Under the pieces are notes generated by a model that was not told where the DNA came from, did not search any database, and saw nothing but the letters and a program-made list of their open reading frames with translations. From Mumia sp. Pv4-285 (GTDB taxonomy: Bacteria > Actinomycetota > Actinomycetes > Propionibacteriales > Nocardioidaceae), in assembly GCF_041320275.1 (NCBI RefSeq), contig NZ_CP162023.1, positions 4,526,001-4,590,000 of the forward strand: a stretch of DNA of 64,000 nucleotides, read 5' to 3'. This document shows positions 4,516-6,302 of this stretch, piece after piece (positions within the stretch are counted from its first letter, which is position 1; every line of letters begins with the position of its first letter). A program made the position numbers and the translations under genes.

Positions 4516-4561
4516 GAAAAGCCAGTTGGCCAGCGTTGCCGCGCCTCGTACGCTTGCCCCG
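4516..4561 (+). promoter_or_regulatory. WhiB7-like promoter of the ABC-F leader transcript
   Basis: The run GAAAA (4516-4520) sits five bases before a -35 TTGGCC (4526-4531), then a 17-bp spacer, a -10 TACGCT (4549-4554) and, six bases on, the GTG of the leader peptide at 4561. An A/T-rich block just upstream of the -35 is the known signature of WhiB7-SigA promoters that control ribosome-antibiotic resistance genes. The geometry makes the transcript leaderless. WhiB7 control is inferred. Confidence 0.55.
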
Positions 4562-4584
4562 TGCACTACTACTTCTTCATCTGA
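4561..4584 (+). CDS. Leader peptide MHYYFFI (attenuator uORF)
   Basis: Seven codons (GTG start, TGA stop at 4582-4584) encode MHYYFFI, an aromatic-rich peptide. The GTG is about where transcription from the promoter at 4516-4561 should begin, so it would be translated from the 5' end of the mRNA. Between its stop and the ABC-F start are stems 4595-4601/4614-4620 and 4633-4638/4646-4651; an alternative pairing of 4597-4601 with 4645-4649 is possible, and CCTC (4672-4675) can pair with the Shine-Dalgarno GAGG (4663-4666). This resembles ribosome-stalling attenuators of antibiotic-resistance ABC-F and Erm genes. Function inferred from architecture. Confidence 0.6.
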   Translation: MHYYFFI

Positions 4585-4594
4585 CGGCTGACTC

Positions 4595-4675
4595 CGCCGC
4601 GATCCCTCTGTGGCGCGGCGTCGACGTCTCCCGACCGCCTCTGACGCGGTCCCGTCACTCTTGAGGAAGCGCCTC
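4595..4675 (+). promoter_or_regulatory. Putative attenuator stems between leader peptide and ABC-F gene
   Basis: Stem A is 4595-4601 with 4614-4620 (7 bp). Stem B is 4633-4638 with 4646-4651 (6 bp). CCGCG at 4597-4601 can instead pair with CGCGG at 4645-4649, excluding both. GAGG at 4663-4666, the only plausible ribosome binding site for the ATG at 4680, can pair with CCTC at 4672-4675 or 4638-4641. Mutually exclusive pairings of this kind fit stalling-dependent control. No folding calculation was run. Confidence 0.4.
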
Positions 4676-4679
4676 TCAC

Positions 4680-6302
4680 ATGACCCTCCGTACGACTCTG
4701 CCTGCGCGCGCCCGCGCCCAGCTCACCGCCGCCGACCTCCACCTCGTACGCGGCAGCCGGACCGTCCTGTCCGGCGTCGACGTCGCCGTCTCTCCTGGGA
4801 CCCGCCTCGGCGTCGTGGGCGAGAACGGTCGCGGCAAGACCACCCTGCTCCAGGTCCTGTCCGGCACGCTCCAACCCGACTCGGGCACCGTGGCCCGCGT
4901 CGGAACCCTCGGGGTGGCCGAGCAGGAGATGCCCTCCGGTGCGGGCCGCACCGTCGGCGACCTCGTCGACCTGGAGCTCGCCGACGCGCACGCCGCGCTT
5001 GCCGACCTCGACACCGCCACGCTCGACCTCGTCGCCGGGCGCGCCGGGGCCGACGACGCGTACGCCGCAGCCCTGCACGCCGCCGAGACCCTCGACGCGT
5101 GGGACGCCGACCGGCGGGTCGACGTGGCGCTCGCCGCGCTCGGCGCGACCACCGACCGGGAGCGACTCTTGTCGACGCTGTCGGTCGGCCAGCGCTACCG
5201 CGTCCGGCTCGCGAGCCTCCTCGGCGCCGACCACGACCTGCTGCTGCTCGACGAGCCGACCAACCACCTGGACGCCGACGGCCTCGCGTACCTCACCGAA
5301 CGACTTCGTTCGTACGCCGGCGGCGTCGTCCTCGTCAGCCACGACCGCGCGCTGCTGACCGATGTCGTGACCAGCGTCCTCGACCTCGATCCGAGCCAGG
5401 ACGGGCGCCCGCGGACGTACGGCGGCGGGTACGAGGGCTACCGCGCCGGCCGTCACGCCGAGCGTGAGCGGTGGGTCGCGGCCTACGAGGCCCAGCGCGC
5501 CGAGCACGCCCGGCTGACGGCCGACCTTCGGACCGCGCAGGATCGCCTGTCCACCGGTTGGCGGCCCGACAAGGGGACGGGCAAGCACACGCGAGCGACG
5601 CGCGCGCCGTCCTTGGTCCGCCAGGTCAACCGACGCCGCGACGCGCTCGATGCCCACGCCATCACCGCGCCGGAGCCGCCGATGGTGCTGCACGTCCCGG
5701 AGCTCCCCGTACGCCCGGGCGTGCGGTTGATCCGCGCCGAGCAGGTCGCACGCAGCGGGAGAATGCGGCGAGCGGTCTCGTGCGTGGTCGGGTCCGGCGA
5801 CCGCCTCGTGCTCACCGGCCCGAACGGGGCCGGCAAGTCGACGCTTCTCCGCATCCTCGCGGGCGACCTGGCGCCGGACAGCGGAGACGTCCGAGTCGCA
5901 CGCGGAGCCCGGATCGGGTGGCTCCACCAGGAGTCGCCCGAGCCCTCGACGCTGCGCGCGGCCGACGCGTACGCGGAGCACGTCGGCCGTCTGGTGGCCG
6001 GCGGTCGCATCGCGGAGTCGGAGTCGGTCACGCTCGCGTCGCTCGGGCTTCTCCCGTCGGCCGACCGCGAACGCCCCGTCGCGGCGCTGTCGACCGGCCA
6101 GCAGCGGCGCCTCGACCTCGCGCTGGTGCTGGCCGCACGCCCGCACGTCCTGCTGCTGGACGAGCCGACGAACCACCTGTCCATCACCCTCGTCGACGAG
6201 CTGACCGAGGCGCTCGGCGCGACCGGCGCGGCCGTGGTGGTCGCGACGCACGACCGGCAGATGCGACGGGACCTCGCCGGCTGGGACCACCTGAAGCTGT
6301 GA
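4680..6302 (+). CDS. ABC-F ATPase, antibiotic-resistance/ribosome-protection type
   Basis: 540 aa with two ABC ATPase domains and no membrane segments. Domain 1: Walker A G47ENGRGKTT, signature L167SVGQ, Walker B with D191-E192 ([15 protein letters not shown]). Domain 2: Walker A G380PNGAGKST, signature L470STGQ, Walker B D494-E495. The roughly 180-residue region between them holds the charged interdomain linker that in this family reaches the ribosome's peptidyl-transferase region. ABC-F proteins dislodge drugs such as macrolides, lincosamides or pleuromutilins from ribosomes, or act as translation factors. Length matches actinobacterial TlrC/OleB-like proteins. The leader peptide and WhiB7-like promoter favour a drug-inducible role. 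The 3' end overlaps the convergent NmrA-like gene by 119 bp. Confidence 0.9.

Follow-up and report, generated by a model that had tools for sequence, protein, structure and literature searches.

A candidate leaderless arrest-peptide attenuator upstream of an actinobacterial ABC-F gene

An ABC-F gene in the 4.65 Mb genome of Mumia sp. Pv4-285 is likely to be controlled by a ribosome-dependent translational attenuator carried on a leaderless mRNA, with a macrolide as the most likely drug and with transcription probably raised by WhiB7. The gene (4680-6302, forward strand, 540 aa) lies in the window analysed here, i.e. the 64,000 nt stretch formed by bases 4526001-4590000, and positions below are counted from the first base of that window. 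Such an attenuator would be of a known kind; the variant is best read as new, in that the mRNA would be leaderless and the codons of the putative arrest peptide would themselves form the anti-Shine-Dalgarno (anti-SD) sequence, and it is spread over two ABC-F clades.

In the proposed mechanism, transcription, probably raised by WhiB7, would start at or beside the GTG codon at 4561, and the leader MHYYFFI (peptides are given here without their stop codons) would thus be the first thing that a ribosome translates. When no drug is present, the ribosome would complete the leader and depart, and the last codons together with the stop codon would fold onto the Shine-Dalgarno sequence (SD) of the ABC-F gene, keeping it off. 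If a drug, most likely a macrolide, occupied the exit tunnel, the short hydrophobic peptide would halt its ribosome at or close to the leader stop codon. This stalled ribosome would then cover the 5′ arm of the helix and free the SD, and the ABC-F protein, presumably a resistance protein, would be made and would clear the ribosome. Since the end of the leader hides the ribosome binding site (RBS), a ribosome jammed there by a drug is expected to switch the gene on. If true, this reading would show how an attenuator could operate without a 5′ untranslated region, and it would provide actinobacterial macrolide-type ABC-F genes with a common drug sensor of which no description was found. Six leader peptides searched for by letter are absent from 5.39 million open papers, and no description of the leader class was recognised by keyword among the matches listed, which comprised titles, the starts of abstracts and a few passages, with subscription papers mostly outside.

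Locus layout and promoter

A first-pass annotation of this DNA had placed a promoter, a leader and the ABC-F gene at coordinates that hold on direct reading, all on the forward strand. As it had claimed, an A-block (4517-4520) lies five bases before a -35 element TTGGCC (4526-4531), a 17 bp spacer separates the latter from a -10 element TACGCT (4549-4554), and the GTG start codon of the leader follows at 4561, six bases past the -10. The leader open reading frame (4561-4584), GTGCACTACTACTTCTTCATCTGA, encodes MHYYFFI and ends with TGA. The gap between -10 and leader start is 6-7 nt in 94 of the 95 leaders located in this study, 4-10 nt being permitted by the search rule, and it fits a leaderless mRNA because such an mRNA needs its start codon right past the -10. 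Judged by this spacing, the 5′ end of the transcript probably coincides with the GTG at 4561 or adjoins it.

When 94 promoters were aligned on their -10 elements, A was found at -31, -30 and -29 in 52, 54 and 44 of them, respectively (background 13.9%), TTG was weakly enriched at -24 to -22, and G occupied -2 in 80; the -10 consensus TAnnnT was imposed by the search rule and is therefore no result of the alignment. The promoter appears to resemble WhiB7 promoters, as the first-pass annotation had proposed, a view supported by the family-aligned A-block and by two WhiB proteins with RGRPR AT-hooks encoded in the genome (L006 and L007). The layout is close to that described for the WhiB7 motif derived by ChIP-Seq in M. 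abscessus and differs in the spacing of the A-block: an AT-rich block stands 3 bp upstream of the -35 in M. abscessus (PMC10727445), compared with five bases in the window and about 4-5 across the aligned family. We infer that WhiB7 may bind here and that transcription may depend on it.

A perfect 20 bp inverted repeat (4446-4494, with arms at 4446-4465 and 4475-4494 and a 9 nt loop) lies between the ABC-F promoter and the upstream gene, whose open reading frame ends at 4426 and which we take, by the look of its sequence, to be a peptidase. This repeat probably insulates the ABC-F unit. At the neighbour locus L010, a seemingly different inverted repeat was seen by eye at the equivalent place.

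The leader across related ABC-F loci

The occurrence of such leaders was assessed in 100 ABC-F rows, of which 92 came from three protein searches with E up to 1e-110 (9 from the first, 25 new in the second and 58 new in the third, 32 of these 58 having been fetched) and 8 were picked by hand (L019, L025, L029, L039, L040, L041, L043 and L045). Rows L040 and L142 are one gene (1700 compared bases identical), so that the 100 rows represent 99 genes and the 23 basic leaders mentioned below represent 22. The 92 search-derived loci give the fair count, because the hand-picked rows were partly chosen for a visible leader. A leader was defined as an open reading frame of 3-26 codons within 480 nt upstream of the gene, starting with ATG, GTG or TTG 4-10 nt past TAnnnT; at six loci with two candidate frames, one was picked by eye. 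Loci with three-codon leaders were set aside as another class (e.g. L018, L020, L022-L024, L026, L028, L030-L038, L044, L048 and L050), and L021 and L027 were likewise left out. A scan of the whole collection for relatives yielded few close ones among the matches listed; the upstream DNA of 14 of at least 80 loci was examined, and 5 were counted.

By this fixed rule, a leader precedes the ABC-F gene in 95 of the 100 rows. Among the search-derived loci it was found in 89 of 92 (67 short and aromatic/hydrophobic, 22 longer and mostly basic) and was absent by the rule from L130, L143 and L197. Shuffled upstream regions gave 5.95 loci per 100 with any such reading frame and 0.05 with one of the aromatic type, and the reverse strand, used as a control, gave 6 leaders of any type and no aromatic one. 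Set against the 72 aromatic leaders found among the 100 rows, these figures bear out the view that a 7-codon, aromatic-rich leader such as MHYYFFI exceeds chance, the aromatic class having been defined post hoc as leaders no longer than 8 codons whose penultimate residue is Phe or Tyr.

Leu is the C-terminal residue of 66 of the 72 aromatic leaders, and the stop codon is TGA in 61, TAA in 8 and TAG in 3. A neighbour with 83% identity carries MQYYFFI, and further examples include MHYFFL, MHLYFL, MQYLYFL, MHLPLYL, MPRLFFL and MGSLIFL; the distance from leader stop to ABC-F start ranges from 46 to 323 nt. Conservation of the leader, which had been set beforehand as the test of the original proposal, was thus found for its type (67 of the 92 search-derived loci) and not for its exact codons. 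As far as these sequences go, the leader is kept as a pattern and not as a sequence, i.e. hydrophobic, with an aromatic penultimate residue and usually a Leu-stop ending. At L041, L043 and L143, the ABC-F gene itself is apparently leaderless, with its start right past the -10 and without a leader peptide.

Pairing of the leader with the Shine-Dalgarno sequence

The predicted fold of the window RNA from 4561 to 4699 (-45.2 kcal/mol; shuffles average -37.7, giving z -1.98, and 6 of 200 reach so low a value) joins 4572-4579, within leader codons 4-7, to 4662-4669, the 3′ arm that contains the ABC-F SD, GAGGAAG (4663-4669). The leader stop codon plus CGG (4582-4587) is predicted to pair with CCGTCA (4652-4657), and two further hairpins (4590-4628 and 4633-4651) are predicted by folding between leader and SD, filling 4590-4651. 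Hiding of the ABC-F RBS, claimed in the first-pass annotation, is thus upheld by prediction; what was described there as competing stems is mainly direct pairing of leader codons with the SD. Rfam gave no match at 4300-4900 up to E = 1, and consensus folding by leader group (RNAalifold) gave structures in some groups and nothing in the two largest mixed groups.

The complementarity is a property of the family. Over 71 distinct loci of the aromatic type, the leader end extended by 8 nt paired with its own SD at -19.2 and with swapped SDs at -16.5 (0 of 5000 permutations as good), and the difference persisted when each peptide was represented by a single locus (n = 34; 0 of 20,000 shuffles), such permutations only partly removing kinship among loci. 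None of 300 sets of synonymous recodings paired as well as the natural leaders; locus by locus, the proportion of recodings that equalled or exceeded the natural pairing had a median of 0.40. For the window alone, the helix does not rise above controls: its own value is -14.0, compared with means of -14.5 for swapped SDs and -13.9 for synonymous recodings, and 95% of the latter pair at least as strongly. A later set of 24 loci gave -16.3 for own and -14.1 for swapped SDs (5 of 20,000), and a weak signal for its aromatic loci taken alone (593 of 20,000, n = 17); this set comprised 18 ARE4-type genes and 6 others, 25 leaders having been located and one dropped for want of a gene start, and it omits L246, L248, L256 and L262 and includes L272, whose gene start is probably wrong.

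Codon choice points the same way. The final Leu codon, where CTC pairs with GGAGG, is CTC in 52 of 66 leaders, compared with 37% CTC in ABC-F genes, and L176 and L180 have CTG together with the SD ACAGG where their kin have CTC and GGAGG. As read from these sequences, this change is compensatory, the two related loci counting as one event.

With ABC-F starts chosen by SD score (three were set by hand), 65 of 70 loci had an SD predicted to pair with the leader region, the mean unpaired probability being 0.07; such pairing was not predicted at L014, L015, L019, L045 and L132. When the leader was masked to imitate a stalled ribosome, mean predicted SD accessibility rose from 0.07 to only 0.28; 29 of the 70 loci gained more than 0.2, and a control mask of up to equal length adjoining the leader gave such a gain in none. 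In the window, predicted accessibility stayed at 0.00 under the leader mask, because a nearby downstream CCUC offers GAGG another partner. Of the 23 sister-clade rows with basic leaders, 9 showed predicted pairing between SD and leader region and none a release of the SD by the mask, some gene starts there being uncertain, and these low figures suggest that another fold probably operates in that group.

The pyrimidine-rich leader could in principle be a mere anti-SD that any translating ribosome opens, making the RNA a coupler and not a drug sensor. Such a switch is in keeping with the complementarity of TTCCTCTGA to TCAGAGGAA and with the drift of the peptide, which takes 34 different forms among the 72 aromatic leaders. 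It is nevertheless improbable, as the reading frame is moderately constrained. Leader-frame pN/pS is 0.56 and 0.44 for pairs with ABC-F identities of 70-80% and 80-90%, respectively, lower than in the two other frames of the same pairs (1.26-1.42), and the constraint includes the N-terminal codons before the last two (0.62 and 0.49); at 60-70% identity the leader gives 0.65, a figure without other-frame control, and above 90% there were zero replacements among 11 pairs, too few to judge. Moreover, at L138, L187 and L200 the helix falls on V-L-Y codons, yet the peptide still ends in Leu-Tyr-Leu-stop, and in the sister clade a known arrest motif takes the place of the aromatic pattern in most leaders. 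The need for an anti-SD could account for part of the Phe-Leu-stop ending. With 34 natural forms of this very short candidate arrest peptide in a single clade, the rules of drug-dependent termination stalling become directly testable.

Attenuation might also act on transcription, a ribosome stalled on the leader preventing a terminator between leader and gene, as at msrD and lmrC. Terminator-type attenuation is well documented for ABC-F genes (PMC10314930, PMC8546547, PMC12421871, PMC10201436): in the accessible portions of these reports, msrD has a Rho-independent terminator, and transcriptional attenuation is demonstrated for lmrC and an are5sc reporter, the transcription reporter of tiaA being constitutive (PMC8546547, PMC12421871). 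A TTTT run past a predicted hairpin is indeed present at L138, L187 and L200. We nonetheless consider this mode unlikely here, where the 3′ end of the leader pairs with the SD and the structure found thus ends on the SD itself, and where, in a scan for T-runs alone, runs of at least four between leader stop and gene start were seen in 10 of 95 loci and not in the window, so that no terminator of the msrD kind was recognised.

The preferred reading, a translational attenuator, has in common with the cat attenuators, and with the ermC scheme outlined in PMC13410324, a leader reading frame, a hidden RBS and an opening expected upon stalling. It differs from them in that the leader's own last codons and stop would form the anti-SD, that no untranslated stretch would precede the leader, and in the 46-323 nt between leader stop and gene start. 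The leaders of cat also overlap their stem.

Family placement, candidate drug and related leaders

The NCBI family nearest to the window protein among those with a name is TlrC/CarA/OleB/SrmB (ARE4; NCBIfam NF000171), for which it scores 340.8 bits, below the cut-off of 800. In a 74-row tree (quick search, LG+G4, midpoint root), the clade of the window protein (49 rows) and the ARE4 rows (25, with the MKI paralog described below) are split by branches with support of 100. Membership of the window protein in ARE4 was rejected on account of this separate clade and the score below cut-off. The window clade is split into one side with aromatic leaders in 30 of 31 rows and one with basic leaders in 15 of 15, and 3 further rows have no leader.

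Leaders of the same kind precede ARE4-type genes. Among the 30 ARE4-type loci examined (of 40 rows), 22 have a leader by the rule above, 12 of these with an aromatic penultimate residue (both counted by eye), such as MGTLLFFL, MRLYFFL and MARHYYFL; very short ones (MGSL, MRLI, MLP, MIF) may partly reflect chance. Eight of the examined loci score above the cut-off, seven of them with a leader and four with an aromatic one. The NF000171 scores of L045 (MGSLIFL), L019 (MHYLFFV) and L025 (MASYFYL) are 885.6, 791.7 and 709.8 bits, respectively, L045 thus passing the cut-off while having an aromatic leader. The family is listed by Murina et al. as conferring macrolide resistance (PMC6723617).

MsrDL, the MYLIFM leader of streptococcal msrD, is likewise a short hydrophobic peptide encoded directly upstream of an ABC-F gene, with an aromatic penultimate residue (F5). 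Its reported stalling at the stop codon with erythromycin involves a clash between F5 and the release factor and requires L3 and I4 (PMC10314930). At the place corresponding to L3, fourth from the end, 52 of the 72 leaders here have Leu or Tyr. MsrDL has an RBS-led leader and a UAA stop, whereas the leaders here have their start codon directly past the -10, comprise 6-8 codons and mostly end in TGA; they appear to match the MsrDL pattern loosely.

In the sister clade, 20 of the 23 basic leader rows contain Arg/Lys-X-Arg/Lys, as in MHTASMRLRTAA, MLTASMRLRFRA and MARGIWSQKVRSAR, recalling the Arg-Leu-Arg of ErmDL (PMC8298421, PMC13410324). This motif is absent from MHYYFFI, and the basic leaders also start right past the -10. 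Ketolides are reported to stall ribosomes predominantly at Arg/Lys-X-Arg/Lys and macrolides more broadly (PMC8298421), and on ErmDL both erythromycin and telithromycin are reported to cause arrest at Arg-Leu-Arg (PMC13410324). The likeness among ARE4-family leaders, the resemblance to MsrDL and the arrest motif of the sister clade make a macrolide the best guess for the drug, and the inducer is by this analogy probably one. Streptomyces lmrC, are5sc and tiaA are likewise actinobacterial ABC-F genes under the control of upstream open reading frames (uORFs), as partly accessible reports describe (PMC8546547, PMC12421871); unlike the locus studied here, they belong to the ARE5 subfamily and concern LSAP drugs, and the uORFs of are5sc and tiaA (MLV, MVGDDDISG) have an RBS.

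An attenuator working as proposed with another inducer (e.g. a phenicol, oxazolidinone, lincosamide or pleuromutilin) is quite possible, if somewhat doubtful. The aromatic leaders are without an exact characterised match, and a paralog in the same genome has the three-codon leader MKI; as PLSA drugs are believed to cause stalling on uORFs of about three codons (PMC10201436), drug sensing in this genome may extend beyond a single class. Against this stand the like leaders before TlrC/CarA/OleB/SrmB-family genes, the likeness to MsrDL and the Arg/Lys-X-Arg/Lys of the sister clade, all of which favour a macrolide.

The paralog (L144; G000:C1:4516300-4519000) is a second ABC-F gene outside the window, about 14 kb upstream from leader to leader, and its MKI leader (L144:530-541) stands under its own leaderless-type promoter. 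Leaders MKN, MKS, MKH, MKI, MKL, MWI and MWN, along with a shared CTCGCG...GCCCGGCGAG-like stretch, were seen by eye to precede many related ABC-F genes. The MKI-type leaders resemble the MK(L/Q) uORF of VmlR2, as given in the accessible part of PMC10201436.

A sequence model of promoter plus leader (R1) recovers the leaders of ABC-F genes; ordinary leaderless genes also appear, with weaker scores, and were left uncounted. The model gives no measure of leader frequency because its filters lose weak matches. In 246 genomes it gave 10 matches at E up to 1e-4, eight of them ABC-F loci already known and the other two before an Erm-like methylase and a kinase-like gene. At L270, the leader MTYLFFV shows an unbroken 10 bp run of leader-SD pairs. 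The gene downstream, which we take from its motifs to be kinase-like, has a product without a match in NCBIfam, PDB or Pfam. It is tempting to speculate that these leaders belong to a widespread actinobacterial class of leaderless arrest peptides (hydrophobic-hydrophobic-Phe/Tyr-Leu-stop), in which one 20 nt stretch would be both a peptide blocking its own release at the stop codon under macrolide and the anti-SD arm that silences the gene. Such a class would serve two ABC-F clades and the unrelated kinase-like L270, with promoter control swapping between WhiB7-like boxes and operator-like palindromes; we regard this broader reading as tentative, leaning slightly against it.

Operator-like palindromes (about GAGACGNNTCGTCT) at or next to the -10 were observed to replace the WhiB7-like box at several ARE4-type leaders and at L270, the loci concerned being L235, L237, L240, L241, L243-L245, L247, L270, L271, L274, L275 and L277. 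A like promoter stands directly before an Erm-like rRNA methylase gene, so named by the look of its sequence, at L212 (G009:C9:51745-51794) in a family relative. Leaderless-type leaders under WhiB7-like boxes were also seen at L287, L282, L280 and L286, before genes that resemble aminoacyl-tRNA synthetase genes by the look of their sequences; these leaders are the Thr-containing MQRAQSYPSATTTPESVPAR, MQRAQQCPSSTTTPETVPAR and MNLQRAAATTTPDTVPAR, and also MKVIDRTTATARATSSPVAAV.
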